IMG/VR virus record: IMGVR_UViG_3300024294_000024
Coordinates: 1 to 40,503 of that record
Direction: 5' to 3' (one strand)
DNA: 40,503 nt
Source of the DNA: a virus
Shown here: piece by piece, positions 1 through 40,503 of the stretch
Layout of the letters: the number at the start of each line of letters is the position of its first letter
Numbering within the stretch: the first letter of the stretch is position 1
Made by a program: the position numbers and the translations under genes
Notes under the pieces: model-generated
The model's input: only the letters and a program-made list of their open reading frames with translations
What the model was told of the DNA's origin: nothing
Database searches by the model: none

Positions 1-3000
1 CCTTAAGTACTTACTGATTTAAGCGCATCTAAAGAGTTCTTAAATGATAACAGGGTAAGAGCTATAGTAGGTAACACTTCATCCGTAGTACTTAGTACTC
101 AAACAGGTAAGTTTAATCTTTATACTGGCTTAGAAGACCCATCTAGCAATTGGAGTAACTACTATTATGTAGTGCCTTTTCCTAATGGAAGCTTTAGCGG
201 TAATGCTACTATCGAGGCTACTAACTTAGAGTTCAGCTCCGATAATGAAGTTACTTTTAAGATTAGTGAATACCAGGATTTAGCGACCTTTAACAGGGTT
301 ATTGATGAACAGACTATAGTAGTTAAAAAGAACTCACAAGAGATAGCAACATTCGAATTGTCATTTAACAACGAACAGTTGACAGATGGTTATTTTATTC
401 TTATAGAATGGACATCTAGTAATAGTGGTACTTCTTTACAAGTGCTACCAAATGGCTTACAGTTCAATATAACGCCTATATCTGCACCTTTAGCTGATGG
501 TTCTGAGATATCTATTAAGGACTTTGTTTATGACATAGACCAATCTAATTTTATTAAGTCACTAGTTCAACAGTTTAACTTAGTTCATTTAACAGATGAA
601 AGGGCTAAAACGGTAGAGTTTCTACATAGAGATGACTTTTATTTAGGTATTGAAGAAGCGGAAGACTGGACAGAAAAGCTAGACGTAAGTAAAATACAAT
701 CTATTGAGCAGATAGATGAAAAGTTGAATAGAAGGTTAGACTTTAAGTATAAAGAAGACGATAAAGACATCTTACTAACTAGCTTTAAAGATACTTGGTC
801 AACTACATTAACAGATGATTCTGAAGAATTGTTAAACGAATTTTTAAAAGATGAGAAAACAATCGCAAACCTTCCTTTCGCTGGAAGTGTGGGAAGTGGT
901 ACTATTATCCAAAAGACAGGTGGAAGTTTATATTTGCCTCAACTAGTTAACTACTTTAGGACTCCAGACGATTCTATAGACCTACAGCCTAGAATATTAA
1001 TTTACGAAGGTTTAAAAAGTGGTGAATGGACTTTTGAGGGTGTTAGGGAAAATAACTTCCCATCTAGTTACTTTATTAAAAAGTCTAGCGGTCAATTTGA
1101 TGTATCTCTAAGTTTTAAGAACCTTAACGAAGTAGATAGGTCAATACAAGACAATGATAAAGGGTTAAAGGATAGGTTCTATAATGAGCAAATAAGACAG
1201 TTTAATGAGTCTAGATTATACACTTGCTACCTAAGGTTAACAGGTGTTGATATTGTTAATCTAAACTTTAGAAAACCTAAGTTAATTGACGGAGTTTATT
1301 ACTATCTTAATAAAGTAGAAGATTACAAGGCAGGAGTTTTTGAATCAGTTAAATGTGAACTAATACAAATAGTGTAAAATGGCAAAAGAAGAAGTATTTT
1401 TTGGAATAAACATAGATACAGGGGAAGCGATAAAAGACTTCGGTACTCTTAAAAGACGAACAAAAGAATTAAAGAAAGAATTAGACGGTACTAAGGTAGG
1501 TACTAAGAGATTTAAAGAACTACAGACTGAAATAACAAGGAACCAAGGCACTATAAGACGTTTTAACAGAGAGTTAAGGCAAACTAAGTCTTTGGCTACT
1601 AGAGTAGGTCAAGGAGTTACTACAGCGTTTAAAAGAGTAGGCGTAGCTATGGCAGGTGCTTTTGCAGTTAGTGGTATCTTTCAGCTTATTAAAAATGGTA
1701 TAAAAACATTTGCAGCATTCGAACAAAAGATAGCAGATGTAGGGGCTGTCTCAGGTGCTACAGCCACAGAACTTAAAAAACTTGAGTTATCGGCTAGGGG
1801 TCTAGGTAAGTCGTCTATATTTACAGCGGAACAAGTAGCAGGGCTACAGTTAGAACTAGCAAAATTAGGTTTCACGACTGAAGAAATAATTAGTGCTTCG
1901 GGTGGTATCTTAGACTTATCTACTGCTTTTAGAATTGACTTGTCACAAGCAGCTTCAGTAACAGCTTCAACCCTAAGAGCTTTTGGACTAGATGCTAATG
2001 ATACTACAATGCTAACCGACTTAATGGCTGACTCGTTCTCTAGTACAGCTTTAGATATTGATAAATTTCAAGAGTCTGTAAAATTAGTTGCCCCTGCTGC
2101 TAAATTAACTGGCGTAGCTGTTGACGAAGTGTCTGCCTTACTTGGTGTTTTAGCTAATAACGGACTTAGCGGTTCAGTTGCAGGTACTCAGCTAAATAGA
2201 GTATTCATCGAGCTTAATGAAAAAGGGCTTACCCTTGAGGACGCTATGATTAGAGTTAATAACGCTACTAACCCTTTTGCTGAATCTTTAGAGTTAGTAG
2301 GAGATAGAGGCGGTAAAGCTTTAGCAATATTTGCTACTCAACAAGACTCTTTAAAAGCTTTGAGAAAAGACTTTGCAGACGTAACAGGTGAAGCAAACAA
2401 GCTATCTAAGGCTTCTGGAGATACTTTAATAGGCGCTACTAGAAGACTACAATCAGCTTATGATGAATTTATCCTTAGTTTATCTGAAACCGACTCTTTT
2501 ATGGCTAGAATAACTAGAGGAGCTGTAGAGTTAGGTACATCATTTTTAGAACTTATAACTGATTCAGAGGATTTAAGCGAGTCAATGCAGAAGCAAAGAA
2601 TTGAGCTAAACGTTTTAATATCTAGAATTACTGACGCTAATATTAAAGAAAAGGATAGGATAGACCTTATACAGCAGCTAAATAAGGAGTACCCTGAGTT
2701 TTTAGGCAACTTAAATGCTGAGACAGCTACTAACCAACAGTTAGCCATGAGATTAGGAGAAGTTAATAAGGAAATGATTAATAAAATCGCCCTTCAGCTA
2801 CAAGATGAAAAGCTTCAAATTAAACTCAAAAAAGCGGCTGAATTACAAAATGAGATATTTGAAGAAGAAGGCAAGATTAGAGCTAGAATTATAGAACTTA
2901 ATGAAGATTATAACTTAGGGATATCCACAACAGGGGTTTCATTAGTGCAAATGACAAGGGCTGCTCAATCAGCTTTAGATGCCCAAACAGTAATAACTGA

Positions 3001-4211
3001 TAACTTCAAGACTGGACTACCTACAGTAAACGCTCAAGGTAGAGCTAACAGCAAGTTGAGTAATTCTTTAGTTTTTTTAAAAGGTGTTCAAGAGGATTAT
3101 AATGAAGCCCAACAAGAAGCTATTGACTTGCAAAAACAAAGGCAAAGGCTTGTTGAGTCTTTATTTGCTGGAGAAGACCCGACAGCTCCTGTAACTTCAG
3201 ATACCTCTACAAGTACAACTACTGGAGATTCAAAAGCAACTAAGAAAACAGCAGAAGAGTTAGAAACGCAAAGGAATCTGTATTTTGAGAACGAAAGACT
3301 TAAAATAATGATTTTAAAGCAGGGGGAAGAAGAAGAACTTGCTTTATTAAGCCTTAAGTACGAGAAAGAAAACCAAAACTTTTTAAACGCAGGTTTAACG
3401 CAAGTGCAAATAACTGAAGCACTAGAAAGAGACAAAGAAGAGGTAAAGCAAAAGTATAGAGATAAAGAGGCTAAAGCAGAAGCTAAAAAACAGAGAGAAC
3501 TTAAAAAGTTTAGAGATGCTCAAGCAAAATACGATGAAGAGCAGTTAAAAAAGAAAGAAGATGCTTTAAAAGCTAAATTAGAAATGGACACTGTGGCGTT
3601 AGAATCTACACAGCAATTAATAGGGTCTAGTATAAGCTTATTAGCTAGGGATGAAGCAGCTAGGCAAAAGAACGGTAAACTAATAAAAGCTTTAGCCATT
3701 GCAGAGATTGCTATTAATACGCAAAAGGCTTTAATGAATGTAGAGGTTAACGAAAAGTCTCCTTTATTTTTACCTAACTTATTTACTGGTGGTTTAGCAG
3801 GTTTAACTATTGGTACTGTTCAGAAAATAGCCATAGCCGCACAAGGTATAGCAAGTGCGGGAATCGTTGCTAGCCAAAAGTTCGCTAAAGGTGGTATTTT
3901 AAGCGGTCCAAGTCACGCACAAGGCGGTATTAAAACTAATCTAGGCGAGTTAGAAGGTGGTGAAGCTGTGATTAATAAAAAGTCTACTGCTATGTTTGGC
4001 GGTGCTTTATCTGCTATAAATGAAGCAGGAGGAGGTAAGAAGTTCGCTAAAGGTGGGGTTTTAGGAGTGCCTTCGACAGTTAACACACCAGACACAACAA
4101 ATAGCCAAGTACTAAGAGCAATTAACAATATTAATATTAAACCTACAGTAAGTGTGGTAGAGATTAACGACGCACAAACTAGAATATCGGAAATTCAAAA
4201 CAATTCAACAT
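1..4211. repeat. Terminal repeat, copy A (partner at 36292-40503)
   Basis: This stretch holds the 3' part of a tail protein gene and nearly all of the tape measure gene, and the same genes recur at the right end of the window. The copies align with a constant offset (36291, then 36292 after one extra base in the short gap before the tape measure gene). They differ at many silent and some coding positions, but the right end of the match (4085-4211 against 40377-40503) is 127 identical bases following a mismatch at 4084/40376. A diverged repeat whose end is exactly one assembly k-mer long suggests two strain variants of one locus joined in a circular graph. A true duplication is the less likely alternative. 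Confidence 0.85.
7..1377 (+). CDS. Tail structural protein, 5'-truncated by the window edge (copy A)
   Basis: This is the C-terminal two thirds of the protein encoded in full at 35650-37668, and the two are nearly collinear at the amino acid level. The reading frame is open from base 7. Codon 4-6 is TAA where the full copy has TCG (Ser), and the first bases also differ, so the very start of the window is probably a poor-quality contig end and the stop is not biological. An ATG at 172 exists but lies in the middle of the conserved protein (VVPFPNG region), so it is not the true start. It ends one base before the tape measure gene. By position it is a tail or baseplate component; no catalytic motif is visible. 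Confidence 0.8.
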   Translation, partial: VLTDLSASKEFLNDNRVRAIVGNTSSVVLSTQTGKFNLYTGLEDPSSNWSNYYYVVPFPNGSFSGNATIEATNLEFSSDNEVTFKISEYQDLATFNRVIDEQTIVVKKNSQEIATFELSFNNEQLTDGYFILIEWTSSNSGTSLQVLPNGLQFNITPISAPLADGSEISIKDFVYDIDQSNFIKSLVQQFNLVHLTDERAKTVEFLHRDDFYLGIEEAEDWTEKLDVSKIQSIEQIDEKLNRRLDFKYKEDDKDILLTSFKDTWSTTLTDDSEELLNEFLKDEKTIANLPFAGSVGSGTIIQKTGGSLYLPQLVNYFRTPDDSIDLQPRILIYEGLKSGEWTFEGVRENNFPSSYFIKKSSGQFDVSLSFKNLNEVDRSIQDNDKGLKDRFYNEQIRQFNESRLYTCYLRLTGVDIVNLNFRKPKLIDGVYYYLNKVEDYKAGVFESVKCELIQIV

Positions 4212-7124: not shown

Positions 7125-7300
7125 TGGTTCGAAAGGCTTCCGCTTTTTTTGGGAATGGTTCGAAAGGGTTAACTATTAATAGTAAAATAAATTTAATGGT
7201 TCGAAAGGGTTAACTTTGTTTAGTAAAACTAATTTAATGGTTCGGAAAGTAGAAGTAGAATAAGAAGTAGAATACTAATAAGAAGTAGAAGTATAATATT
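7121..7300. repeat. Non-coding island with ATGGTTCG-AAAGG repeats and GAAGTA tract
   Basis: The 243 bases between the tail tube gene and the next ORF contain four copies of ATGGTTCGAAAGG or a near variant, starting at 7124, 7155, 7196 and 7237 (spacing 31, 41 and 41). Copies two and three continue into GGGTTAACT and then TAGTAAAA. The fourth continues as GGAAAGTAGAAGTAGAAT and leads into a purine-rich GAAGTA/AATA tract to about 7292. The inverted form (CCTTTCGAA) and the same purine tract occur at 31049-31190. No ORF is present. Confidence 0.8.
7131..7150 (+). terminator. Terminator after tail tube gene
   Basis: GAAAGGC / GCTTTTTT can pair (with G-U pairs) around a TTCC loop and runs into seven T residues (7144-7150). 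The stem is short. It overlaps the first of the four ATGGTTCG repeats. Confidence 0.5.
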
Positions 7301-7307
7301 AATATTA

Positions 7308-8297: not shown

Positions 8298-9563
8298 ATG
8301 GAACAAAACACAGATAACAGTAATATATTTTTCGTCAACCTTACTACTAAATCAGTAACACCTGACGTTATAAGTAGAGGTAATAAGCGTAAGGAATACG
8401 TTTATTATGGTAAAGACAATTTATTTCCTCAATACCTTGTGGACCTTGCGGATAATTGTTCAATTCATAGAGCTTTATTAGATACTAAGTCTAAATTTAT
8501 TAATGGTGGAGGTTTTGAGTTCATAGGTGATGACTCGCAGGTTTCTGCTGCTGAGTCTTTTCTGTCAAGGGTAGATAAAAACTTTTTACGTAATACATCT
8601 ACAGATTTAGCCTACTTCAACGGTTTCTACTGGCAAAGTCTTTTCGAAAGAAGTGGTTTAGTAGCTAACTTAAAGAATGTTGACTTTAACTACATTAGAA
8701 GTGGCAAGATGAACGAAAATGGAGACGTAGACAAGTATTGGTTCAGTCCAGACTGGGCTTTTGCTACTAAGAAAAGTACGTTTAAACCAGAGGATAAGAT
8801 CTACGAACCTAAACCAATTGCTGTTTGGGATACAGTAGATAGAGAGTTAAGAAGAGAAAGAGGTGAATTATTTAAAGGTCAATTTTATAGCCCTAACAAA
8901 GTGTTTTACGCAGAGCCTAGTTATTTAGGAGCGTTAAACTATATCGAAATTAGTAATCAAATAGCTGAATTTCACAAGAATAACCTGGATAATGGAATGG
9001 TAGGCTCTATGCATATTCATTTATTTGAAGACTTAAGCGACATTGAAAAGCGTAGAAAGGTTGAAAAGGCTATTAATAATAAGTTCACAGGAAGTGAGAA
9101 CGCAGGTAAAGTAGTAGTAACATGGTCTACTAATCCAGACGTTAAAACTGTTGTAGATTCAATACCAGTAAACGACTCGCATGAAATGTTTACCTTGTTA
9201 AATACTAAGGTTAACGAAGAGATAGTAATATCACATAGAACGCCTTTAGCTTTAGCAGGTTTAAAAGTGGCAACAGGTTTACAGTCTGATGATTCAGTTA
9301 CTAAAAACGCTATGGAATACTACCAAAACACAGTTATAAAACCACTTCAGCAGTTAATAGAGGAGTCTTTTGATACTATTCTAGAAAGAAACGGTATTAA
9401 CGTAGAGACTAAAATCAAACCTTTAAAGCCTGTTGATTTATTTGCTAGTGAAGAATTGATTAGTAGAACTATGACTATTAATGAGGTTAGAACACAGATT
9501 TTAGGTGTTGAAGAATTAGAAGAGGGTGGAGACGTAATAATTAACGAAGCAACGATAGACTAA
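8298..9563 (+). CDS. Portal protein
   Basis: This 421-residue protein forms the dodecameric ring through which DNA enters the head. Typical portal features of Bacteroidota phages are visible. An N-terminal YYGKDNLFPQYLVDL (about 36-50) is followed by a region of short strands (about 90-200) with a KVFYAEPSYLGALNYIE clip/stem transition (about 202-218). A helix-rich C-terminal part (about 290-365) contains VISHRTPLALAGLK and an EYYQNTVIKPLQQLIEE stem-like helix. The gene begins after a 61-base AT-rich gap. Its stop overlaps the next start by one base. It lies after the capsid and tail tube genes, an unusual order. Confidence 0.85.
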   Translation: MEQNTDNSNIFFVNLTTKSVTPDVISRGNKRKEYVYYGKDNLFPQYLVDLADNCSIHRALLDTKSKFINGGGFEFIGDDSQVSAAESFLSRVDKNFLRNTSTDLAYFNGFYWQSLFERSGLVANLKNVDFNYIRSGKMNENGDVDKYWFSPDWAFATKKSTFKPEDKIYEPKPIAVWDTVDRELRRERGELFKGQFYSPNKVFYAEPSYLGALNYIEISNQIAEFHKNNLDNGMVGSMHIHLFEDLSDIEKRRKVEKAINNKFTGSENAGKVVVTWSTNPDVKTVVDSIPVNDSHEMFTLLNTKVNEEIVISHRTPLALAGLKVATGLQSDDSVTKNAMEYYQNTVIKPLQQLIEESFDTILERNGINVETKIKPLKPVDLFASEELISRTMTINEVRTQILGVEELEEGGDVIINEATID

Positions 9564-10795
9564 TGGCATTAGATTTAGGAATATTTTTAGAGGGTTCGCA
9601 AAGTACTTTTAAGGTTAAGGTGTCTGAAAACGACGCACAAGCTCAATTTTTACTAGACAAGTTCATTAGTTCAGACGGTTCGGTAACTATTACAGAGACT
9701 AACGACGGAGGAATAGAGACTATAGATTTAGTAGCTGGTGGAGGTTCTCCTTTAACGACTAAGGGCGATTTATTTACCTATTCTACTGCGGACGCTAGAT
9801 TAGGAGTAGGAGCGGACGGAGAAGTTTTATTAGCTGATTCTGCTGAAGCTACTGGTTTAAAGTGGGGTACTATTTCCGCTGATAATATGGCTACAGCTGA
9901 CCTAACCTTAACTGGGAATAGAACTCACGATTTAGCGGGATTTGATTTAACAATAACAGACGCTACTAATGGTGATGTGTTAAACCTTAGATCAGATGGT
10001 TCTTTCGCTTTAGGTGAAAATATAACAGAGGGAGCAAGTGCGTATAAACAATACAATACGCTCATAGGTAGTGGAGTAAGTGTTAATAACGGATACTATT
10101 TAACCATTTTAGGTCAAGGCAACAGTTTCAATACTACGGGAGATTTGAATTCAAGAACAACTATTGTAGGTTCAGGAAACTCTGTTAAAAACAATGGCTC
10201 TGTATATAACACTATCGTTGGTGACAACAATAGTCTTGGCAGTTTAACAGGTTTAAATTTTTCTGTAGTAGTAGGTAACAATACAACTACTGCTTCAGGT
10301 ATTACTTCAAGCAGTAATATTATGTTAGGAGGTTATCATTATGTAAATAGCTCAAGTTCTATTAACATAGGTAAATATTTAAGGTCAAACGCGAGCCAAG
10401 CCCATATTTTTGGTGGGTACGGAGGTAATGTGAGGTTACAGAGTAATGTTGGTCAATCTTTCTTTTTTGGTTTCAATAATGGGGTAGTAGACGCTAACAA
10501 CTCTACGGTTGTAGGCTCTCAATTACTTTTATCAAGATTAAGCGATTCGTGGTTAAAATTATACAACGGTACTAATTTAGGTATTAACACTTTCAGTCCA
10601 ACAGCTAAACTAACTGTTAAAGGCGAAGGCTCAACAAATGCTACTTCTACCTTATTAATAGAAAATAGTTCTGGAACTGATGCCTTAGAAGTTAGAGATG
10701 ATTCAATAATAATTATGGCAAACCTTCCAACTGCTTCAGCAGGACTACCTACTGGAGCTTTATGGAACAACTCAGGAGTATTAACAGTAGCTTAA
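9563..10795 (+). CDS. Tail fibre / appendage protein
   Basis: This 410-residue protein begins with a short N-terminal domain. It is followed by a PLTTKGDLFTYSTADARLGV motif (about 72-91), common in tail fibres and other trimeric appendage proteins. The middle (about 150-340) has many short Gly/Asn/Ser-rich units of the IVGSGNSV type. These recall the beta-helical head repeats of trimeric adhesins. A C-terminal knob follows (LPTASAGLPTGALWNNSGVLTVA). It probably forms a trimeric host-binding fibre. Its first 16 coding bases are the same as those of the capsid gene (MALDL), perhaps a favoured initiation sequence. Confidence 0.72.
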   Translation: MALDLGIFLEGSQSTFKVKVSENDAQAQFLLDKFISSDGSVTITETNDGGIETIDLVAGGGSPLTTKGDLFTYSTADARLGVGADGEVLLADSAEATGLKWGTISADNMATADLTLTGNRTHDLAGFDLTITDATNGDVLNLRSDGSFALGENITEGASAYKQYNTLIGSGVSVNNGYYLTILGQGNSFNTTGDLNSRTTIVGSGNSVKNNGSVYNTIVGDNNSLGSLTGLNFSVVVGNNTTTASGITSSSNIMLGGYHYVNSSSSINIGKYLRSNASQAHIFGGYGGNVRLQSNVGQSFFFGFNNGVVDANNSTVVGSQLLLSRLSDSWLKLYNGTNLGINTFSPTAKLTVKGEGSTNATSTLLIENSSGTDALEVRDDSIIIMANLPTASAGLPTGALWNNSGVLTVA

Positions 10796-12600: not shown

Positions 12601-12830
12601 TGGCGATTGAGATAACAAACAGCGGTGGACTTTTTAAGATTAAAAACACCTCAAATGGCAGTATTAAAGCCATATCAAAGGATGACGTAAGGTTTGAGTT
12701 AGATAATGAATTAACTATTCTAAAGGGTGCTAAATACCCTGTACTAGTTATTAAAAGCTCTAGCGAAGTAACTACGCCAGATTCTACAGACTTAAATGAT
12801 TTATTAACTAAATTAAATAACTTAACTTAA
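12600..12830 (+). CDS. Small beta-rich protein, paralogue of the next protein's N-terminus
   Basis: 76 residues. GGLFKIKNT...DDVRFEL...LTILKGAKYPVLVI lines up, position by position, with the first 70 residues of the next protein (GGQLKIVKG...DDVHLES...LLFKQNNAPIIQLLL). Both then have a Thr/Ser-Pro turn and end in a leucine-rich LxDLLxxL helix. This looks like a free copy of the anchoring module used by the adhesin-like proteins downstream. Both start codons overlap the preceding stop. Confidence 0.7.
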   Translation: MAIEITNSGGLFKIKNTSNGSIKAISKDDVRFELDNELTILKGAKYPVLVIKSSSEVTTPDSTDLNDLLTKLNNLT

Positions 12831-13732
12831 TGGCAACAATCTCAAAAGAAGGTGGACAGCTAAAAATAGTTAAGGGGTCGGATATATTTTCCATTCCCTT
12901 AGATGATGTACACTTAGAGTCGGTAAATGCTGACTCTTTATTATTTAAGCAAAACAATGCGCCAATCATTCAGCTTTTACTGACTGATATAACTAGCCCA
13001 ACATTTACAAGCTTAGAAGACTTAGTAGAGCAGATAGGAGGTTTTGCTTCTTCGTCTGGCGTTGGTGGTGAAGTTGCTAACTCTGGTTATTCGCATACGG
13101 GAGCGTTCGCAGGTAAGCCTTTAAGTAATAATTACGTTTGGGAAGCTGGAACGGGTATAAGTTACAGTCAAACAGACGTTAATAACCAAGTATACAAAGT
13201 ACTTTCTTTAGATAACGACGTACATTTAGCAGTAGATAACCCTTATTGGGCTACTCCAGATGTTAGCGGATTAGATAACGTGGGATTGTTTAATGGTTAC
13301 GCTTTACCTAATGACGTAACAAGTTTAGTAGATTATACTTATGACTTCGATACTGAGTACCCAAGTTCAACGGGAACAGGCTTTGAGGGTTCTACGGGTA
13401 GAATTAAACTAAACGATTTACAATATGGAGATCAGATTAGAGTACGTTTTGACTTTAACGTAATACCGCAGATTGCTAATACAACCGTAGAGCCTGCGTT
13501 ATGGTATTCGAATAGAGATGATAACGATAACATCACTTTTACATTTCCACTTACTACTCAGCCTATATTTTATGGTGGCGGTACTGTAGGGAATACGTAT
13601 TTAAACAGAGTAGAGATTTCAGCTTGGGTTATAAGTAACGAAGATGTAAACGCTTTAACATTACCAGCTATTAAATCGGACAATCCTATAATAATTCAGC
13701 CTTTAGGATTATTAATAACAGTAATAAGATAA
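12830..13732 (+). CDS. Probable fibre / receptor-binding structural protein
   Basis: 300 residues. Residues 1-70 form a small beta module shared with the preceding gene. A Gly/Ser-rich hinge follows (about 71-83), and then a beta-rich C-terminal body (about 84-300) with a jelly-roll-like pattern of short strands (for example LNDLQYGDQIRVRFDFNV). The architecture of anchor plus variable beta domain, and its place in a string of fibre-like genes, suggest a receptor-binding or virion-surface protein. No enzyme motif is visible. Confidence 0.62.
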   Translation: MATISKEGGQLKIVKGSDIFSIPLDDVHLESVNADSLLFKQNNAPIIQLLLTDITSPTFTSLEDLVEQIGGFASSSGVGGEVANSGYSHTGAFAGKPLSNNYVWEAGTGISYSQTDVNNQVYKVLSLDNDVHLAVDNPYWATPDVSGLDNVGLFNGYALPNDVTSLVDYTYDFDTEYPSSTGTGFEGSTGRIKLNDLQYGDQIRVRFDFNVIPQIANTTVEPALWYSNRDDNDNITFTFPLTTQPIFYGGGTVGNTYLNRVEISAWVISNEDVNALTLPAIKSDNPIIIQPLGLLITVIR

Positions 13733-13736
13733 TAAA

Positions 13737-15008
13737 ATGAGTATAAAGATTAAAAGAAACGAAGCAGGGAACTGTATAACCTTTGAGGGGTCTTCTAACC
13801 CAGTTTACTGGAATAGCTGTTTAAGTGGGGAAATAGATAGTAGTGACAATACGCTAGTTAATATTATTAATGATATCAGAACAGCTGAAAACGGAACGCC
13901 ATTTTACGAGTTTTTCAGAATACCTTATACAGAGTTTTTAGATGCTAATGGTAGTAGCTTTGCTAGTTCTTCAGATACAGTAGATTATATAAATCAAGAA
14001 GCAAACGTATTAGAAGCAACTTTAGCGGGGTTTCTTAACTTAGAAAATGTATCTGGTACTAACGATAAAGTAAATTTAACAAGCGTAACGAGTCAAGAGA
14101 AAATAGGAGGAGGTATTAAGTTTACTGCTGGTAGCAATATTGAATGTGGGCAACCTGTTTTTTATAATTATAGCTCTACGGGGGTTGTTACTGCTGTATC
14201 TGCTGGTACTTTACCATCTCAACACGATTACATTGGAATAGCTTTAAAAACAGTAACAAGTGGGCAAGGTGTTAACGTATTAACTAAGGGGCTAGTAACT
14301 GCTAAAAGAGATACTACATTTTTAACAAGTTCGGAAACCGTAATACTAAACAACACTTCCAATAACACTATTAGGAACTTAACTAACAGTACTACTTTTG
14401 TAGATAGTGGAGATACGGGAGGAGACTACAATAGTAACGAAAACTATAGTATAACTTTTGATGCTCAATTAGGGTACACGGTAAAAATGACAATAAATGA
14501 CTTTAGATTTGAGCATACAAGTACTAGAATGTACGATAGACTAGGGGTACAAGGTTCTAATGATGGTGTTAACTTTACTAATTTAAGTGTTCCGTGGTTT
14601 CAAAAATCAGCTACATCAACACCGACTTGGAGCGAGTTTTTTGCTAATAATAATTCTTGGAATAGTACAGGTGCAGACAATGGTTATATATTACCGAAAG
14701 ATACAACCAGGGCTATATTGTTAGGCGGTGTACCAAGTGGTACTTTCCCAGCAGAGGTAGATACTGGATATAGATATATTAGATTTTACTTTAGGTCTGA
14801 TACTAGTAGTAACCAAGATGGATGGGATATAACCTTGCAGCCTAATACACCTTATACATCAAGTACAGAAGCTGTAGCGGAAGGAACTACACTATATTTA
14901 GATAATTCAGATTATACGAAAGTAACAACAGACGACACCTCTCAAATATTAGTGGGGTACTGTGCTTTTAATAACGCAGAAAACGATAGCATTTTTATAA
15001 GAGTATGA
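13737..15008 (+). CDS. Fibre-like protein with an inserted CUB-like domain
   Basis: 423 residues. The N-terminal module (about 1-100) ends in EFLDANGSSFASSSDTVDYI, a segment common in Bacteroidota phage fibre proteins. A beta domain (about 120-196, GIKFTAGSNIECGQPVFY, GIALKTV) appears to continue only at 372-423 (AEGTTLYLDN, ILVGYCAF, FIRV). Between its halves, at about 219-367, is a CUB-like region with FVDSGDTGGDYNSNENYSIT, FRFEH, YDRLGVQGSNDG and YIRFYFRSDTSSNQDGWDIT. CUB domains bind glycans or proteins, so host-surface recognition is a fair guess. The stop overlaps the next start by 4 bases. Confidence 0.7.
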   Translation: MSIKIKRNEAGNCITFEGSSNPVYWNSCLSGEIDSSDNTLVNIINDIRTAENGTPFYEFFRIPYTEFLDANGSSFASSSDTVDYINQEANVLEATLAGFLNLENVSGTNDKVNLTSVTSQEKIGGGIKFTAGSNIECGQPVFYNYSSTGVVTAVSAGTLPSQHDYIGIALKTVTSGQGVNVLTKGLVTAKRDTTFLTSSETVILNNTSNNTIRNLTNSTTFVDSGDTGGDYNSNENYSITFDAQLGYTVKMTINDFRFEHTSTRMYDRLGVQGSNDGVNFTNLSVPWFQKSATSTPTWSEFFANNNSWNSTGADNGYILPKDTTRAILLGGVPSGTFPAEVDTGYRYIRFYFRSDTSSNQDGWDITLQPNTPYTSSTEAVAEGTTLYLDNSDYTKVTTDDTSQILVGYCAFNNAENDSIFIRV

Positions 15009-15358
15009 CAATAATACAAGACAAAACGAACGATTTAATATTTTACGCTTCAAGCGGTTTAACTAACCCTTATTATTTAGTAAGGTTAGTGAATAGATTA
15101 ACTGCTAAAGAGTTTGTTTTTTTAGACCAATCAGCAGTATCTTGCCCTTTTATAAGCTTAGAATTATTAGAGCCAGGTAAAGACGCACCAGACGACGCTG
15201 TTAACGGTACTTTAAAAATTGACTCAGGTAGTTACGAGATTTACTTATACGACCAAGAAAGCAACACAAACTTAGATTATACGTTAAGTAATAGTAATCT
15301 TTATAGTGGTTTTGCTTACGTGTATTCAGATGAGGACTTAGATAGAACTTTTTTATAA
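15005..15358 (+). CDS. Hypothetical virion-operon protein (117 aa)
   Basis: A small beta-rich protein, overlapping both neighbours (4 bases before, 1 after). It starts MTIIQDKTNDLIFYASSGLTNPYYLVRLVN, split by a turn near residue 19, and has a GSYEIYLYDQESNTNLDYT segment. Proteins of this type sit just before endolysin genes in flavobacterial phages, but I know no function. Possibly the last gene of the tail-fibre group. Confidence 0.65.
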   Translation: MTIIQDKTNDLIFYASSGLTNPYYLVRLVNRLTAKEFVFLDQSAVSCPFISLELLEPGKDAPDDAVNGTLKIDSGSYEIYLYDQESNTNLDYTLSNSNLYSGFAYVYSDEDLDRTFL

Positions 15359-16125: not shown

Positions 16126-16166
16126 CTCTCTAATAATCAGGCAGTTACAAATTAATTTAAAAATAG

Positions 16167-16237
16167 TTGTTAAAAGATTAGGAGTTATCAACTAGGAATA
16201 CATATCTTTGAGGAAACGAATAACAAAAACGAATATT
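16167..16237 (+). promoter_or_regulatory. Early promoter-leader cassette 1
   Basis: TTGTTAAAAGATTAGG is followed by GAGTTATCAACT and a TATCTTTG -7 box (16203-16210). Then comes the leader AGGAAACGAATAACAAAAAC and GAATATT before ATG 16238. The same arrangement recurs near 23.2, 26.4 and 30.0 kb. The TAnnTTTG box matches the Bacteroidota housekeeping promoter, and the -33 position would fall on the TTA at 16178-16180. The leader carries no Shine-Dalgarno site. Confidence 0.75.
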
Positions 16238-16531
16238 ATGACAAATCAAGAAAGAGCAATCCAAGAAGTATTAGAGTTAGAATTAGATTACGACCAAGTA
16301 ATCTTAGACTTTGAGCAGTACGGACACATCGACCAAGTATTAGAAACGGAATCAGAAAACTTTGAATTCTCTATAACTGTAGAGATTAACGCTGCTAACT
16401 ACGGTGAGTTTGATAACTTTGCAGGAACTATCGAAGTAGTAGATATCGAATACTTAAAGGTAGGAGACGAAGACGTTAAAGAGCTTAGATTAACTAAACA
16501 GATTAGAGAACAGCTAAAAACGGTAAGATAA
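16238..16531 (+). CDS. Early hypothetical protein (97 aa)
   Basis: A small acidic protein, first gene after promoter cassette 1. ATG 16238 is the true start: the frame is open further back to 16208, but those ten codons translate the conserved leader (KRITKTNI), which is also seen before two unrelated genes. The protein has an alternating strand pattern (FEFSITVEINAANYGEF) and a basic C-terminus. Its stop overlaps the next start by one base. Function unknown; possibly a host-takeover factor. Confidence 0.75.
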   Translation: MTNQERAIQEVLELELDYDQVILDFEQYGHIDQVLETESENFEFSITVEINAANYGEFDNFAGTIEVVDIEYLKVGDEDVKELRLTKQIREQLKTVR

Positions 16532-23124: not shown

Positions 23125-23148
23125 TAAAATTATTCTAATTGATAATCA

Positions 23149-23178
23149 AGGGGTTACATATTGTAGCCTCTTTTTTTT
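23149..23178 (+). terminator. Strong terminator
   Basis: AGGGGTTACA (23149-23158), loop TAT, TGTAGCCTCT (23162-23171) form a 10-bp stem with G-U pairs, followed by eight T residues. Almost the same hairpin ends the GIY-YIG operon at 30806. Confidence 0.88.
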
Positions 23179-23249
23179 GTTAAAAAGTTAGGAGTTATCA
23201 ACTTAAATAGTGTATCTTTGAGGAAACGAAACAACAAAAACGAATAACT
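23178..23249 (+). promoter_or_regulatory. Early promoter-leader cassette 2
   Basis: TTGTTAAAAAGTTAGG runs directly out of the terminator T tract. AAGTTA/CAACTT arms (23185-23190 and 23199-23204) form an imperfect inverted repeat with an 8-base centre. The -7 box TATCTTTG lies at 23213-23220. The leader GAGGAAACGAAACAACAAAA precedes ATG 23250. The layout matches cassettes 1, 3 and 4. Confidence 0.78.
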
Positions 23250-23525
23250 ATGAAATTAAGAAGCGGACAAATTCAAGACGTAAAAAAAGCAATTATCAAA
23301 GAGGTAAAAGAGTTAGAGTACGGTACTAAAAGTGTTAATTCTTACGTAACATTAACCGACTTAGATTTAGACCTAGATTACACTTTAAAGGTAGCGCCTG
23401 TAGTATATAGCGGTTTAACTTTAATAGCTTGTTTAGATTACTGTGTAGCATTCCACGAAAGTGTTGGAGATGTAGATATAGAAAACACAGAAGATATTGA
23501 GACTATAACTATTAAACTTTGGTAA
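23250..23525 (+). CDS. Early hypothetical protein (91 aa)
   Basis: First gene after promoter cassette 2. A basic N-terminal helix (about 5-22) is followed by an acidic, beta-rich body with LTDLDLDLDYTLKV (about 35-48) and DVDIENTEDIETITIKLW at the C-terminus. No family recognised. Its promoter is shared with three other small early genes, suggesting an immediate-early role such as host modification. Confidence 0.72.
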   Translation: MKLRSGQIQDVKKAIIKEVKELEYGTKSVNSYVTLTDLDLDLDYTLKVAPVVYSGLTLIACLDYCVAFHESVGDVDIENTEDIETITIKLW

Positions 23526-26369: not shown

Positions 26370-26377
26370 TGTTGCGG

Positions 26378-26446
26378 TTAAAAAGTATTAGGTTTTTAAC
26401 AAGTAGTTATATATCTTTACAAAAACGAATAACAAAAACGAATATT
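26378..26446 (+). promoter_or_regulatory. Early promoter-leader cassette 3
   Basis: GGTTAAAAAGTATTAGG, TTTTTAACAAGTAG, a TATCTTTA box (26412-26419) and the leader AAAAACGAATAACAAAAACG lead to ATG 26447. It begins nine bases after the methyltransferase stop. The -7 box and upstream part are weaker than in cassettes 2 and 4, but the leader is the same. Confidence 0.68.
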
Positions 26447-26677
26447 ATGAAAGTACAAGATTTAAGAAACGAATTATCTAACGGAGTGACAGACTTCGCG
26501 TTTATCAAAAAAGACGGAACAGTAAGATTAGCCCAGGGCACTACAAACTTGGCTTTTGTTCCAGTAGAAAAGCACCCTAAAGGCGGTAAGGCTAGTGATA
26601 AGGTTTTAGCTTACTTTGACCTAGAGAAAGATAACTGGAGATGTTTGTCAGTTAACACGGAATTTATAACAGCTTAA
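26447..26677 (+). CDS. SH3-like small protein (DUF2693-type)
   Basis: 76 residues. FIKKDGTVRLAQGTTNLAFV (19-38) then a conserved Pro/Lys loop and AYFDLEKDNWRCLSV (about 55-69) match the small SH3-barrel proteins common in Bacteroidota phages and hosts. ATG 26447 is the start; the 26 codons in frame before it translate the promoter and leader. A role in DNA or RNA binding is often supposed for this family but not shown. Confidence 0.8.
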   Translation: MKVQDLRNELSNGVTDFAFIKKDGTVRLAQGTTNLAFVPVEKHPKGGKASDKVLAYFDLEKDNWRCLSVNTEFITA

Positions 26678-29896: not shown

Positions 29897-29917
29897 AAAT
29901 AATTAAGCTGAAAATGA

Positions 29918-29946
29918 GGGAGTTATAAATTAATTCCCTTTTTTTT
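29918..29946 (+). terminator. Terminator after the terminase operon
   Basis: GGGAGTTA (29918-29925) and TAATTCCC (29931-29938) form an 8-bp stem with one G-U pair around TAAAT, then eight T residues that run straight into promoter cassette 4. Confidence 0.85.
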
Positions 29947-30015
29947 GTTAAAAAGTTATAGTTTATTAACTTGAAGTGCTTATATTTGATGAAACGAATT
30001 ACAAAAACGAATATT
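29946..30015 (+). promoter_or_regulatory. Early promoter-leader cassette 4
   Basis: TTGTTAAAAAGTTATAG is followed by a perfect inverted repeat AAGTTA-8 bases-TAACTT (29953-29972). The TATATTTG -7 box lies at 29981-29988, and the leader ATGAAACGAATTACAAAAAC precedes GAATATTATG (ATG 30016). The perfect palindrome makes this the best place to look for an operator. Confidence 0.78.
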
Positions 30016-30381
30016 ATGACTAGAATAAATGTAGCAGTAAAACCAATCGAGCTTAACGATAAAATGCTAATGGCAGAGCATAGAGAGATTAAGCGTATAC
30101 CCAATTGCATTAAAAAAGGTCGTTATAATCTTAGCGGCATTCCTGACAAATTTACTTTAGGTACGGGTCATGTGAAATTCTTCTACAACAAGCTTGAGTA
30201 CTTACACGATAGATACGTAGACCTTTACTACGAATGTCTTAAACGTGGCTTTAACGTAACTAACTACGAAGAAGCTTTTAACGATTTACCAAACGAACTT
30301 TATAACTGGTACGATGAAACTGATAGAGACAGGGAGATAATTTTACAGCGTATTAATGAACGATTAAATAGTAACAATTAA
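30016..30381 (+). CDS. Early hypothetical protein (121 aa)
   Basis: ATG 30016 is the start; earlier in-frame codons translate the shared leader. The protein begins MTRINVAVKPIELNDKMLMA and has HREIKRIPNCIKKG (about 21-34) then a region rich in Tyr, Glu and Asp (DRYVDLYYECLKRG, about 58-71) of helical character. Short proteins of this kind, sometimes annotated as pyrimidine dimer DNA glycosylase-like (T4 endonuclease V), share the HREIKRIP helix and a late LPxELYxWYDETDR-type motif, so a DNA repair glycosylase relative is a possibility. Confidence 0.65.
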   Translation: MTRINVAVKPIELNDKMLMAEHREIKRIPNCIKKGRYNLSGIPDKFTLGTGHVKFFYNKLEYLHDRYVDLYYECLKRGFNVTNYEEAFNDLPNELYNWYDETDRDREIILQRINERLNSNN

Positions 30382-31048: not shown

Positions 31049-31190
31049 ATCCTTTCAAAGGGTTACCTTATCCTTTCGAACCCTTACCTTATCCTTTCAA
31101 ACCATTCCACTTTTTTTAGTAACCCTTCGGAAAGTAGAAGTAGAAGTAGAATAAGAATAAGAAGTAGAAGGTTAAGTATAAGTAGAAGTA
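31049..31190. repeat. CCTTTC 21-bp tandem units and GAAGTA purine tract
   Basis: Three CCTTTC(A/G)AA units start at 31051, 31072 and 31093 (21-bp period), joined by TTACCTTAT. They are the inverted form of the ATGGTTCGAAAGG units at 7124-7250. From 31129 the sequence reads CGGAAAGTAGAAGTAGAAG and continues as a GAAGTA/AATA purine tract to about 31192, again shared with the 7.2 kb island. The rest of the 30778-31443 stretch (to the promoter box at 31431) is AT-rich and holds no ORF that I can support. Confidence 0.78.
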
Positions 31191-31430
31191 GAATACTAAA
31201 CAGAATATCACTAAACAGATGCGCAACAAGTTGCTTTTACATAACTAATTCAATTTAATTCATTATAACCTTTTTAAAGCATTATTATAGCGTTATGGAC
31301 TCTATATATCATAATAAAAAGATAATCTCTTAAATCGCTTGTTTAACACCTTAAAAGCTATTCTACGATGCAGTTTTACCCTGTTTATTTATTTAGTTCA
31401 TTAACTAGCTAATAGTATTAATAAATTCCG

Positions 31431-35650: not shown

Positions 35651-37668
35651 TGGCGACACCTTTAAACATATACAACTTAGATAAGTTTAACCCTTACGAC
35701 TTTTTTATTCCGTTAACGTTTAGTATTAATGACTTTAGAGACATTAGCACAAGAAACGGTACATTCAGTAAGACTGTTAAAATACCAGGTACTAAAAAGA
35801 ATGACTCTTTATTAGGTCATAGCTTTGATATAACTGCGGAGGGTTTCTTTGATAGGAATAAAAGAGTACCTGCGATAATAGAAAAGGATGGTATTAAGTA
35901 TTTAGATGGTTCTATGCAGCTTAAAAGCGTAGACATAACAGACGGTAAAAGTCATGTTTACAACATCATACTATACTCTAGTCTATCCGATTGGGGTGCT
36001 TTGATTAAGGATAAAAATATACAGGACTTAGATTATGATACTTTTACCTATAATGCTGCTAATATTGAAAATAGTTGGTCTTATAATGGACGTGATAATG
36101 GTTATACTTTCCCTCTTATTAATTATGGTGAGTTTACTACCTATCCTACCTATGATACTACTAATTTAGTAGTAGAAGACTTTTTACCATCTGTTTTTGT
36201 TTATGATGTTTGTAGAAAGATATTTAACGATATAGGTTACCAACTTAAACCTGGTTTCTTTAATCGTCAGGAGTTTAGAGATTTAATAATGCCATCGGTA
36301 CTTACTGACTTAACCGCATCTAAAGAGTTTTTAAATGATAACAGAATAAGAGCTATAGTAGGTAATACTTCATCCGTAGTACTTAGTACTCAAATAGGTA
36401 AATTTAACCTTTATACTGGCTTAGAAGACCCATTTAGTAATTGGAGTAACTTTTACTATGTAGTACCTTTCCCTAATGGCAGTTTTAGCGGTAATGCTAC
36501 TATAGAGGTTACTAACTTACAATTCTTGTCTGATAATGATGTAACTTTTAAGATTAGTGAATACCAAGACTTAGTGACCTTTAACAGGGTTATTGATGAA
36601 CAGACTATAACAGTTAAAAAGAACTCGCAAGAAGTAGCAACATTTGAATTGTCATTTAACAACGAACAGTTAACAGATGGTTATTTAATTCTTATAGAAT
36701 GGACGTCTAGTAATAGTGGTACTTCCTTACAAGTGCTACCTAATGGCTTACAGTTCAATATAACGCCTATATCTGCACCTTTAGCAGATGGTTCTGAAAT
36801 ATCTATTAAGGACTTTGTTTACGACATAGACCAATCTAATTTTATTAAATCACTAGTTCAACAGTTTAACTTAGTTCACTTGACAGATGAAAGAGCTAAA
36901 ACGGTAGAGTTTCTACATAGGGATGACTTTTATTTAGGTATTGAAGAAGCAGAAGACTGGACAGAGAAGCTAGACGTTAGTAAAAGACAATCTATTGAGC
37001 AGATAGACGAAAGGTTAAATAGAAGGTTAGACTTTAAGTATAAAGAAGATGATAAAGACATCTTACTAACTACCTTTAAAGACACTTGGTCAACTACATT
37101 AACAGATGATTCTGAAGAATTGTTAAACGAATTTTTAAAAGATGAAAAAACAATCGCAAATCTTCCTTTCGCTGGAAGTGTGGGAAGTGGTACTATTATC
37201 CAAAAGACAGGTGGAAGTTTATATTTGCCTCAATTAGTTAACTACTTTAGGACTCCAGATGACTCTATAGACCTACAACCTAGAATGTTAATTTACGAGG
37301 GTTTAAAAAGTGGTATATGGACATTCGAGAGTAGTGTTAAAAATAACTTCCCATCTAGCTACTTTATCAAAAAGTCTAGCGGTCAATTTGATGTGTCTTT
37401 AAGTTTTAAGAGTCTTAACGAAGTAGATAGGTCAATACAAGATAATGACAAAGGGTTAAAAGATAGGTTCTATAATGAGCAAATAAGACAGTTTAACGAG
37501 TCTAGGTTATATACTTGTTATCTAAGGTTAACAGGTGTTGATATTGTTAATTTAAACTTTAGAAAACCTAAGCTAATTAACGGAGTTTATTACTATCTTA
37601 ATAAAGTAGAAGATTACAAGGCAGGAGTATACGAATCAGTTAAATGTGAACTAATACAAATAGTGTAA
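35650..37668 (+). CDS. Large tail structural protein (672 aa, complete copy)
   Basis: The complete version of the protein truncated at 7-1377. The N-terminus (about 1-130) has FIPLTFSINDFRDISTRNGT and KIPGTKKNDSLLGHSFDI, a module widespread in Bacteroidota phage tails. It is followed by a long beta-rich body and an acidic helix-rich stretch (about 360-470). Two differences from the truncated copy are clustered near 340-390 bases from the end (for example IWTFESSVK for EWTFEGVRE). By position it is a tail-tip or baseplate-like component. The tape measure gene starts two bases after the stop. Confidence 0.72.
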   Translation: MATPLNIYNLDKFNPYDFFIPLTFSINDFRDISTRNGTFSKTVKIPGTKKNDSLLGHSFDITAEGFFDRNKRVPAIIEKDGIKYLDGSMQLKSVDITDGKSHVYNIILYSSLSDWGALIKDKNIQDLDYDTFTYNAANIENSWSYNGRDNGYTFPLINYGEFTTYPTYDTTNLVVEDFLPSVFVYDVCRKIFNDIGYQLKPGFFNRQEFRDLIMPSVLTDLTASKEFLNDNRIRAIVGNTSSVVLSTQIGKFNLYTGLEDPFSNWSNFYYVVPFPNGSFSGNATIEVTNLQFLSDNDVTFKISEYQDLVTFNRVIDEQTITVKKNSQEVATFELSFNNEQLTDGYLILIEWTSSNSGTSLQVLPNGLQFNITPISAPLADGSEISIKDFVYDIDQSNFIKSLVQQFNLVHLTDERAKTVEFLHRDDFYLGIEEAEDWTEKLDVSKRQSIEQIDERLNRRLDFKYKEDDKDILLTTFKDTWSTTLTDDSEELLNEFLKDEKTIANLPFAGSVGSGTIIQKTGGSLYLPQLVNYFRTPDDSIDLQPRMLIYEGLKSGIWTFESSVKNNFPSSYFIKKSSGQFDVSLSFKSLNEVDRSIQDNDKGLKDRFYNEQIRQFNESRLYTCYLRLTGVDIVNLNFRKPKLINGVYYYLNKVEDYKAGVYESVKCELIQIV

Positions 37669-40503
37669 AAATGGCAAAAGAAGAAGTATTTTTTGGAATA
37701 AACATAGATACGGGGGAAGCGATAAAAGACTTTGGTACTCTTAAAAAACGAACAAAAGAGTTAAAAAAAGAATTAGACGGTACTAAAGTAGGCACTAAGA
37801 GGTTTAAAGAACTACAGACGGAGATAACTAAGAACCAAGGCACTATAAGACGTTTTAACCGTGAGTTAAGAGAAACTAAATCTTTAGCTACTAGAGTAGG
37901 ACAAGGTGTTACTACAGCGTTTAAAAGAGTAGGCGTAGCTATGGCTGGAGCTTTTGCGGTAAGCGGTATCTTTCAAGTCGTTAAAAATGGTATTAAAACT
38001 TTCGCAGATTTCGAACAGAAAATAGCTGATGTAGGAGCAGTATCAGGAGCAACAGCGACAGAACTTAAAGAACTTGAGTTATCCGCTAGAGGTTTAGGTA
38101 AAAGCTCTATATTCACAGCTGAACAAGTAGCTGGACTACAGTTAGAATTAGCTAAGTTAGGTTTTACTACAGATGAGATTATAAGTGCTTCTGGAGGTAT
38201 ATTAGACTTATCTACAGCTTTCAGAATAGATTTATCACAAGCAGCTTCTGTCACAGCATCAACTCTAAGAGCTTTTGGGTTAACAGCTGATGATACTACA
38301 AATTTAACTGACTTAATGGCTGATGCGTTCTCTAGCACAGCTTTAGACATAGATAAATTCCAAGAATCAGTAAAACTAGTAGCTCCAGCTGCTAAATTAA
38401 CTGGTGTAGCTGTTGAAGAAGTATCTGCTTTGCTTGGTGTTTTAGCTAATAACGGACTTAGCGGTTCAGTTGCTGGTACTCAGTTAAATAGAGTATTTAT
38501 TGAACTTAATAAAAAAGGGCTTACACTTGAAGAAGCTATGATTAGGGTTAACAATGCTACCGACCCTTTTGCTGAGTCTTTAGCGTTAGTTGGAGATAGA
38601 GGTGGTAAAGCTTTAGCTATTTTCTCTACTCAACAAGAATCTTTAAAAGCTTTAAGAAAAGACTTTGCTAATGTAACAGGAGAAGCCAGTAAGCTAGCTA
38701 AAGCCTCTGGAGACACTTTAATTGGTGCTACTAAAAGACTACAATCAGCTTGGGACGAGTTTGTTTTAAGCTTATCTGAGACTGATTCCTTTATGGCTAG
38801 GATAACTAGAGGAGCAGTAGAATTAGGTACTTCGTTTTTAGAACTTATCACTGATTCAGAAGAATTAAGTGAATCAATGGAAAAGCAAAGGATAGAGCTT
38901 AACGTTTTAATATCTAGGATTACTGACGCTAATATTAAAGAAGAGGATAGAATAGATCTTATACAGCAACTAAACAAAGAGTACCCTGAGTTTTTAGGCA
39001 ACTTAAACGCTGAAACAGCTACTAACGAAGAGTTAGCTATGAGATTAGGTGAAGTTAACCAAGAGATGATTAATAAAATTGCTCTTCAGTTACAAGATGA
39101 AAAATTACAAGAGAAACTTAAAAAAGCAGCTAAATTACAAAATGAGATATTTGAAGAAGAAGGTAAAATTAGAGCTAGAATCATAGAACTTAATGAAGAC
39201 TATAATTTAGGGATAGCTACAACTGGAACCTCTTTTGAGAGGATGGCAAGCGCTGCTAAATCAGCTTTAGATGCTCAGACTATAATCACTGATAACTTCA
39301 AAACTGGTTTACCTACAGTAAATTCCCAAGGTAGAGCTAATGACAAATTAAGTAACTCGTTAATGTTCTTAAAAGATATTCAAGAAGACTATAACGAAGC
39401 ACAACAAGAAGCAATTGACCTTCAAACGCAAAGACAAAGACTTGTTGAGTCTTTATTCGGTGGTGAAGACCCTAATGCACAAGCTGACCCTACTACTCCT
39501 GACGTAAGTACTACGGGGGATTCAAAAGCTACTAAGAAAACAGCAGAAGAGTTAGAAAAACAAAGGAAGCTTTACTTTGATCACGAAAGACTTAAGATAA
39601 TGGTCTTAATGGATGGTGAAGAAAGAGAATTAGCTTTGATTGATCTTAAATACGAAAAAGAAAAGCAGAAACTCACAGAAGCTGGTCTAACAGAAGCCCA
39701 AATATTAGAAGCTAATGAGAGAGATAAGGAAGCTATAAGGCAGAAATATAGAGAGAAAGAAGAAAAAGCAGAAGATAAAAAACAAAGAGACCTTAAAAAG
39801 CTTAGAGATGCTGAAGCGAAATATGATAAAGAACAATTAAAAAAGAAAAAAGCGGACGCAGAGAAAGAAGCGGAAATTAATAACTCTAGATTTGATTCTG
39901 CGGCTAGTTTAGTTAATTCTACAATAGCTTTACTAGATAGAGATGAAAAGTCTAGAAAAAAGAACGGTAAACTCATAAAAGCTCTAGCTATTGCAGAGAT
40001 TGCCATTAACACACAAAAAGCTTTAATGAATGTAGAAGTTAACGAGAAATCGCCTTTATTTTTACCTAACTTATTTACGGGAGGTTTAGCTGGTTTAACT
40101 ATTGGTACTGTTCAAAAAATAGCTATAGCAGCACAAGGTATAGCAAGTGCAGGAATTGTTGCTAGCCAAAAGTTCGCTAAAGGTGGTATCTTAAGCGGTC
40201 CAAGTCATGCACAAGGCGGTATTAAAACTAATCTAGGCGAGTTAGAAGGTGGTGAAGCTGTTATTAATAAAAAGTCTACTGCTATGTTTGGCGGTGCTTT
40301 ATCTGCTATAAATGAAGCAGGAGGAGGTAAGAAGTTCGCTAAAGGTGGAGTTTTAGGAGTGCCTTCGACAGTTAATACACCAGACACAACAAATAGCCAA
40401 GTACTAAGAGCAATTAACAATATTAATATTAAACCTACAGTAAGTGTGGTAGAGATTAACGACGCACAAACTAGAATATCGGAAATTCAAAACAATTCAA
40501 CAT
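36292..40503. repeat. Terminal repeat, copy B (partner at 1-4211)
   Basis: Diverged second copy of the left end of the window. Its last 127 bases match the left copy exactly up to the final base, which would be the first base of the tape measure's last sense codon (TTA). Confidence 0.85.
37671..40503 (+). CDS. Tail tape measure protein (copy B), cut by the window end before its stop
   Basis: This is the second version of the tape measure gene, 2833 bases long with no stop. By alignment it lacks only the rest of the last Leu codon and the TAA. The N-terminal third and the C-terminal 200 residues are close to copy A. The part from about residue 600 to 770 differs much more, for example FDSAASLVNSTIALLDRDEK against VALESTQQLIGSSISLLARD. 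Overall length is equal to copy A, as expected if tail length is kept the same in both strains. Confidence 0.9.
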   Translation, partial: MAKEEVFFGINIDTGEAIKDFGTLKKRTKELKKELDGTKVGTKRFKELQTEITKNQGTIRRFNRELRETKSLATRVGQGVTTAFKRVGVAMAGAFAVSGIFQVVKNGIKTFADFEQKIADVGAVSGATATELKELELSARGLGKSSIFTAEQVAGLQLELAKLGFTTDEIISASGGILDLSTAFRIDLSQAASVTASTLRAFGLTADDTTNLTDLMADAFSSTALDIDKFQESVKLVAPAAKLTGVAVEEVSALLGVLANNGLSGSVAGTQLNRVFIELNKKGLTLEEAMIRVNNATDPFAESLALVGDRGGKALAIFSTQQESLKALRKDFANVTGEASKLAKASGDTLIGATKRLQSAWDEFVLSLSETDSFMARITRGAVELGTSFLELITDSEELSESMEKQRIELNVLISRITDANIKEEDRIDLIQQLNKEYPEFLGNLNAETATNEELAMRLGEVNQEMINKIALQLQDEKLQEKLKKAAKLQNEIFEEEGKIRARIIELNEDYNLGIATTGTSFERMASAAKSALDAQTIITDNFKTGLPTVNSQGRANDKLSNSLMFLKDIQEDYNEAQQEAIDLQTQRQRLVESLFGGEDPNAQADPTTPDVSTTGDSKATKKTAEELEKQRKLYFDHERLKIMVLMDGEERELALIDLKYEKEKQKLTEAGLTEAQILEANERDKEAIRQKYREKEEKAEDKKQRDLKKLRDAEAKYDKEQLKKKKADAEKEAEINNSRFDSAASLVNSTIALLDRDEKSRKKNGKLIKALAIAEIAINTQKALMNVEVNEKSPLFLPNLFTGGLAGLTIGTVQKIAIAAQGIASAGIVASQKFAKGGILSGPSHAQGGIKTNLGELEGGEAVINKKSTAMFGGALSAINEAGGGKKFAKGGVLGVPSTVNTPDTTNSQVLRAINNINIKPTVSVVEINDAQTRISEIQNNST

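Follow-up and report, generated by a model that had tools for sequence, protein, structure and literature searches.

Probable display of a CUB domain, nested in a capsid-decoration-type domain, on the exchangeable end of a marine phage fibre

The viral record IMGVR_UViG_3300024294_000024 of IMG/VR comprises 40,503 nucleotides (called the window), and the gene under study, at positions 13737–15008, encodes a protein in which a predicted CUB domain interrupts a head-decoration, or cement, domain. CUB domains are binding modules familiar chiefly from immune and developmental proteins of animals; this virus, a marine phage, probably exposes one on a surface fibre, nested in a domain of the capsid-decoration type at the exchangeable end, and the calcium-site residues of the animal domains are conserved in it. 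The interpretation as a whole, namely that the protein provides a two-protein fibre, probably located on the head of the virion, with an exchangeable adhesion head that binds through calcium, is favoured here with moderate confidence. An original prediction had described a CUB-like domain inserted in a phage fibre protein, and the open reading frame, the coordinates and the motifs that it quoted are all present. The protein is built as follows:

Positions 13737–15008, plus strand: the complete protein, 423 residues
Positions 13737–14021, plus strand: N-module, residues 1–95, a connector common to proteins with differing C-terminal domains (locus matches, AlphaFold (AF2) model, cyanophage homologues)
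Positions 14076–14321, plus strand: first part of the cement domain, residues 114–195 (PF09956, phrog_122 'head decoration', VIA structural alignments)
Positions 14322–14849, plus strand: inserted CUB domain, residues 196–371 (excision test, PF00431, profile matches, structural alignments)
Positions 14850–15005, plus strand: second part of the cement domain, residues 372–423 (PF09956 positions 55–100; continuous match after excision)

An interrupted cement domain

The Pfam family PF09956 (Phage_cement_2) matches the protein in two stretches with 31.5 bits (cut-off 24), and PHROGs assigns the cement part to the 'head decoration' family phrog_122 and residues 28–97 to an unknown family. When residues 196–371 are excised in silico and residues 97–195 are joined to residues 372–423, a single continuous PF09956 match of 38.9 bits is obtained (E 1.2e-9, profile positions 15–100), so that, judged by its sequence, the cement domain is one domain that is interrupted once; two alternative excision junctions gave 35.4 bits (in two stretches) and 29.4 bits (in one stretch). 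The split beta domain that had been predicted at residues 120–196 and 372–423 is thus borne out. The start of the insert was moved to approximately residue 196 because the hairpin before residue 219 belongs with the CUB domain, which gives an insert of 176 residues, in agreement with structural alignments that mostly cover residues 193–372; the bounds first proposed, 219–367, lie inside this insert and are too narrow.

By family, the split domain belongs with the head-decoration proteins (cement, beta-tulip-like); a capsid fibre is on this ground indicated no less strongly than a tail fibre. It resembles the Phage_cement_2/DUF2190 and beta-tulip decoration proteins (lambda gpD, phage 21 SHP, the base of phi29 gp8.5) in its PF09956 match above the cut-off and in its structural match to the gp8.5 base, and it differs from them in the 176-residue interruption and in its fusion behind unrelated N-termini.

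Identity of the inserted domain

The insert is assigned to the CUB family on the evidence of sequence. In a close homologue, L020, whose cement and CUB parts (together, the cassette) are 80% identical to those of the window, both domains exceed their Pfam cut-offs (CUB, PF00431, 26.8 bits, E 6.9e-6; cement 30.5 bits), and a profile (A9) built on ten divergent phage copies and compared with the PDB returns CUB proteins in 12 of the 13 rows at E<=10, with ADGRG6 (4.6e-5) and MASP-1 (0.0051) below 0.01, followed by MASP-2, cubilin and C1r; the CUB similarity therefore exceeds chance. The same phage profile aligns by hhalign with nine Bacteroidota CUBs at 98.3% probability (E 1.5e-14, 34% identity over 104 columns), and the profile of these nine sequences itself finds cubilin (5.1e-31) and neuropilin-2 (1.8e-20). 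Pfam scans of the cassette proteins found CUB and no discoidin family. The remaining scanned relatives score under the CUB cut-off of 21.4 bits (L142 21.1, L123 17.0, L144 15.1, L009 13.8 and L165 13.5), and no CUB match was found in L117, L143 and L163 by the Pfam scan. The CUB-like domain of the original prediction is in this way upheld.

Two AF2 models, one of the full-length protein (alignment A3) and one of the cassette (alignment A6, 17 sequences), have been used solely as agreement with the sequence results. With the first, VIA places CUB chains at ranks 1–14 and in 38 of 50 rows (counted by titles and ranges), with Z values of 4.7–6.4 and mostly over residues 193–372; the rows of this model are filled mostly by CUB and are uninformative on the N-module. 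The best CUB rows, both from low-confidence models, have Z 6.4 over 93 residues with a root-mean-square deviation (rmsd) of 3.0 in the first model and Z 6.2 over 97 residues with an rmsd of 3.5 in the second. In the second model, the first part of the cement domain matches the HFTV1 portal-capsid interface chain (Z 8.0) and the phi29 gp8.5 base (Z 7.0, rmsd 1.8, 51 residues), with further rows for Pam3, T1, YSD1 and SHP entries.

Several of these results weigh against the CUB assignment. The window copy just misses the Pfam cut-off, with 18.5 bits for the whole protein and 19.1 bits for the segment, so that the profile search proposed with the original prediction does return CUB, below threshold. 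The models are poor, with a mean predicted local distance difference test score (pLDDT) of 49.7 for the full-length protein and 58.4 for the cassette, and the full-length prediction, which ranks CUB chains first, reaches good confidence in the N-module alone (59–92 pLDDT in 10-residue blocks over residues 1–90, with seven of nine above 70). All VIA Z values over the CUB region are below 8; Foldseek against the PDB yields no match at E 0.001 for either model; and among the predicted viral structures of BFVD the single match that does reach it is with a concanavalin-like protein from Tetraselmis virus 1 (E 1.2e-4, TM 0.23), followed at lower rank by F5/8C entries and, at E 0.04–0.13, by entries for DUF2190, capsid fibres and decorators, which for their part speak for the decoration family.

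The insert could on this account be a discoidin (F5/8C, CBM32-like) sugar-binding jelly roll. The second model does not separate the two folds: CUB and F5/8C chains are tied in VIA over the insert, CBM32 and discoidin chains lead in Foldseek, and F5/8C-named entries appear in BFVD; the motif SNDGVNF, moreover, may resemble discoidin sequences. The Pfam scans, the PDB profile search, the hhalign result and the first 14 VIA ranks of the first model all speak for CUB, and a discoidin domain is considered highly improbable.

A candidate calcium site

The inserted CUB domain carries counterparts of the Glu, Asp and Asp metal ligands of the calcium-binding subset of CUBs, in a spacing like that of C1s; together with Tyr266 and Ser357 they correspond to the residues with which complement C1s binds calcium and lysine:

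Positions 14511–14513, plus strand: Glu259, counterpart of C1s Glu45 (E-x7-[D/E] spacing in the family)
Positions 14532–14537, plus strand: Tyr266-Asp267, counterparts of C1s Tyr52-Asp53 (family rows; C1s residues from PMC4222235)
Positions 14799–14807, plus strand: Asp355-Thr-Ser357, counterparts of C1s Asp98 and Ser100 (family rows)

In C1s, mutating Glu45, Tyr52 and Asp98 changes C1q binding, as described in PMC4222235; PMC6954182 is an additional source on calcium-site residues. The distances are the same in phage and C1s, with 8 positions from Glu to Asp and Ser at +2. Among the 27 family rows checked (duplicates and near-duplicates L001, L004, L128 and L164 excluded; several of the rows are near-identical, so that counts are not independent events), the E-x7-[D/E] spacing is kept in 26, the exception being L163 with one extra residue; the position of Asp267 holds Glu instead of Asp in L123 only, and the second Asp (Asp355) is present in all 26 rows that reach it. 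The calcium-site residues rank among the most constant columns of the alignment. Ser357 is a point on the other side, as the Ser at +2 is lost in L117, L165 and L123. Such conservation suggests that the domain may bind calcium and capture a ligand in a calcium-dependent manner.

The closest known systems are the calcium-binding CUBs (PF00431) of C1r/C1s/MASP and ADGRG6, with which the phage domain shares profile homology, the E-x7-D motif, the Tyr before the first Asp and the D-x-S spacing. Unlike them, it occupies a 176-residue insert (against a profile of 110 positions), has no cysteine in the insert and is nested in another domain of a phage protein.

Exchange of the cassette

Fifty-eight related viral loci were found. 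In 21 of them the similarity extends into the cassette, and in the other 37 it is confined to a stretch from residue 1 to residue 134 at most. Three scanned loci of the second kind continue differently behind the N-module, with Laminin_G_3 (L022), a right-handed beta helix (L030) and a putative Ig domain (L039); in L045 and L058 the contig ends close behind or within the N-module. In a six-frame search of 43 of the 58 loci and the window, PF09956 at E<=1 was present in 14 of 14 cassette records and in none of 30 N-module-only records (2 of the 44 exceeded the cut-off, and 4 of 14 control genomes matched too). All 26 loci found as relatives of the cement half sit on CUB-bearing contigs, and CUB and cement therefore move as one C-terminal cassette; no cement domain of the same subfamily that lacks a CUB was found with the peptide patterns used, which favour close relatives. 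A recent insertion in the phage of the window was considered and rejected, since the CUB is carried by all of these cement-half relatives.

The cassette also stands behind other N-termini, namely a short one (L015, L016, L017 and L020) and those of L142, L143, L144 (where it terminates a 1,019-residue protein), L117/L128, L163/L164 and L165. The L020 contig (L020:2435-5176) has, close upstream of its cassette gene, a 914-residue protein with four Laminin_G_3 stretches.

Three comparisons describe the exchange. In L022 the gene order is that of the window, neighbouring proteins are 53–97% identical, and the partner protein encoded immediately upstream (82%) and the N-module (76%) are kept, with a laminin-G end in place of the cassette: the attachment part is retained and the C-terminal part exchanged, as in receptor-binding proteins. 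In a forced global alignment of the window and L022, DNA identity is 75–92% in the partner core, 80–85% at the start of the N-module and 65–73% in the rest of it, falls to 48% at 14090–14149 and returns to 72–80% at 15030–15329. In L015/L016 the cassette is kept (81%) behind another short N-terminus, with no N-module or partner core, and the upstream protein differs, having in common with the partner a 75-residue start only (25%). In L007, L009 and L018 the pair and the cassette are 81–90% identical to those of the window, and the putative major capsid protein and portal merely 22–28%. Recombination therefore occurs at both junctions, and distant phages exchange the pair. The earlier idea of a swappable head holds as far as swapping is concerned; the unit that is swapped is the cement-CUB cassette, exchanged for other adhesion-type domains at the N-module boundary, and not the CUB insertion by itself.

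One case of a CUB without cement halves was found, in a 604-residue protein (L123:2-1813) whose CUB is about 45% identical. The same contig encodes another protein, with a sub-threshold match to the Capsid_N family, as well as a DNA methylase; a PDB sequence search with this capsid candidate found nothing. The contig is possibly that of a virus of a different capsid type.

The partner gene

The gene upstream of the N-module always belongs to the same family in the loci examined:

Positions 12830–13732, plus strand: partner gene, 300 residues, with residues 1–80 phage-specific and residues 80–300 a conserved core that accompanies the N-module

In all 53 viral loci examined (L052 and L054 share a contig, and the L006 contig holds only the end of the core), and likewise in all 4 of the cyanophage loci, the core directly precedes the N-module, with a gap of -1 to 15 bases except in L034 (77). 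It was found in none of the 10 loci that have the cassette, lack the N-module and include upstream DNA. The same 10 cyanophage records match both proteins, with 50–53% identity in the N-module. Between the window and L009, DNA identity shows a step near 13070, and residues 1–80 are, from their sequence, the probable virion dock. Sequence searches for a PDB relative of the N-module and of the partner found none (best E 0.72). In IMGVR_UViG_3300035070_001383 (L052 and L054), two N-module proteins with different C-terminal ends are encoded about 10 kb apart.

Proposed mechanism and position in the virion

The gene pair at 12830 and 13737 would encode a two-protein fibre of the virion. Residues 1–80 of the partner would dock this fibre on the virion, as their phage-specific sequence suggests, the partner core would hold the N-module, in keeping with their strict co-occurrence, and the C-terminus of the 13737 product would be the exchangeable adhesion head. 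In the phage of the window this head would consist of the beta-tulip-like cement domain, probably as a trimeric platform, with the CUB in a loop; through its acidic calcium site of the C1s/ADGRG6 type, the CUB would most likely depend on calcium, supplied by sea water, to hold a surface molecule by one of its basic or polar groups. The likely target would be the cell surface or an extracellular polymer of the Bacteroidota host. A different use of the same head is that the CUB binds an environmental matrix (algal polymer, particles) and merely keeps the phage where its hosts live, which we consider rather unlikely.

The position of the fibre has two candidate answers. A capsid fibre is favoured because of the cement family and of the gene order: the pair or the cassette lies near head genes (putative major capsid protein, portal, connector) in L007, L009, L018, L142 and S-CRES1. 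On balance, we lean towards the capsid. The same two-protein device could also sit on the tail, as a side fibre or part of the baseplate, with the cement-type domain reused for fibre trimerisation. In S-CREM2 the homologous pair follows a short tail fibre gene and precedes an 'adaptor', and the S-H34 homologue is annotated 'tail protein', both of which count against the head position; in addition, the protein next to that of L163 has a match to a tail fibre PHROG, the L144 cassette ends a very long protein, and the DALI relatives of the beta-tulip include a phi29 preneck appendage (PMC7602432). Weighed against the family of the domain and its repeated position near putative head genes, a tail location is possible and is given less credence.

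It may also be that the CUB has a structural or protective role (cementing the capsid, spacing, shielding from proteases) and that the host is bound by another fibre, for instance the product of 9563–10795. PF09956 members are cement proteins by name and the gene at 9563 is a further variable, fibre-like one; on the other hand, the part in question is exchanged for lectin-like and beta-helix modules, and its calcium-site residues are among the most constant. This explanation appears unlikely to us. The probabilities of these alternatives overlap and are not meant to sum to one.

Origin, distribution and novelty

The Bacteroidota CUB proteins share with the phage CUB the DSGG..Y..NEN start and the FxSDx..GW end, and some of them are placed behind signal-like N-termini of long proteins, others internally. 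They differ in that the Glu-to-Asp loop is usually shorter, the Glu standing 4 before the Asp in 15 of 25 phylum rows. The phage spacing of 8 is uncommon in bacterial CUBs, being found in 1 of 9 (L108) and 2 of 25 (L173 and L178, which additionally have the commoner Glu at -4), and L107 has the Glu but Tyr for Asp. In a sample of 299 genomes from the family of G044, 6 match the phage-CUB profile at E<=0.001, and in the phylum of G044, 17 of 247 genomes match PF00431; none of these matches is close, and an origin in a sampled host protein is no more than a possibility. A scan of viral contigs for the Saprospiraceae CUB found nothing. In a broader scenario, a C1s/MASP-like, calcium-dependent CUB adhesin of marine viruses would grip basic groups on a surface molecule by means of an acidic pocket ordered by calcium; it would probably have been recruited from secreted proteins of Bacteroidota hosts and passed on as a cassette among unrelated tailed phages and perhaps, as in L123, to another capsid type. 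This scenario is tentative and in our view doubtful.

In agreement with the original statement that CUB domains are rare in phages, tblastn against 50,697 annotated phage records found no CUB cassette (best E 0.4 or worse). An exact-motif scan of 2.9 million viral contigs returned 24 CUB-like stretches, 21 on contigs of the family together with L117, L123 and L128; such a motif misses variants, for example L142. No report of a CUB in a phage virion was present among the literature matches listed, in searches where the term CUB was only sometimes required and whose coverage takes in few subscription papers.

Adhesion domains on decoration proteins are already known. Hoc of T4 and pb10 of T5 are decoration proteins that display adhesion-type domains, according to PMC7602432; theirs are Ig domains in tandem, whereas the window has a CUB, inserted within a decoration-type domain, and a partner protein. 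A CUB among such domains would be a new addition, joining the adhesion folds that phages probably display, with a calcium-dependent mechanism that is testable. Lectin-type, beta-helix, Ig-like and CUB heads interchange behind one conserved connector pair in Bacteroidota phages and cyanophages; this interchange points to a system of adhesion cassettes in uncultured marine phages and is a natural series of domain swaps that could serve host-range prediction.

Genome context

The nearest relatives of the terminase (TerL) are those of Flavobacterium phage 11b (55%) and Cellulophaga phage phi10:1 (52%), which speaks for a Bacteroidota host. The window also encodes a ClpP-type head protease, a portal, a tape-measure protein, a GH108 endolysin and a DUF6712 gene, which we take to be a head-tail connector; its major-capsid match is sub-threshold. 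The gene at 13737–15008 lies downstream of this connector-like gene and upstream of the endolysin.

The ends of the record, 7–4211 and 36298–40503, form a 4.2-kb direct repeat of 87.5% identity in which the tape-measure protein occurs in two copies (88% identical); the genome is therefore probably circularly permuted, of about 36.3 kb, with ends assembled from two strain variants. Dispersed repeats of about 70–110 bases and 75–81% identity are found at 16135–16270, 23140–23282, 26377–26450 and 29909–30020, and an extra pair of about 50 bases at 7241–7302 and 31126–31199; the dispersed repeats are possibly repeated control elements. The gene at 9563–10795 is a second modular gene, whose first 126–130 residues are kept in L022 (85%) and, partially, in L015 (46%), the remainder being unmatched; residues 63–163 of its product are similar to Microcystis phage proteins.
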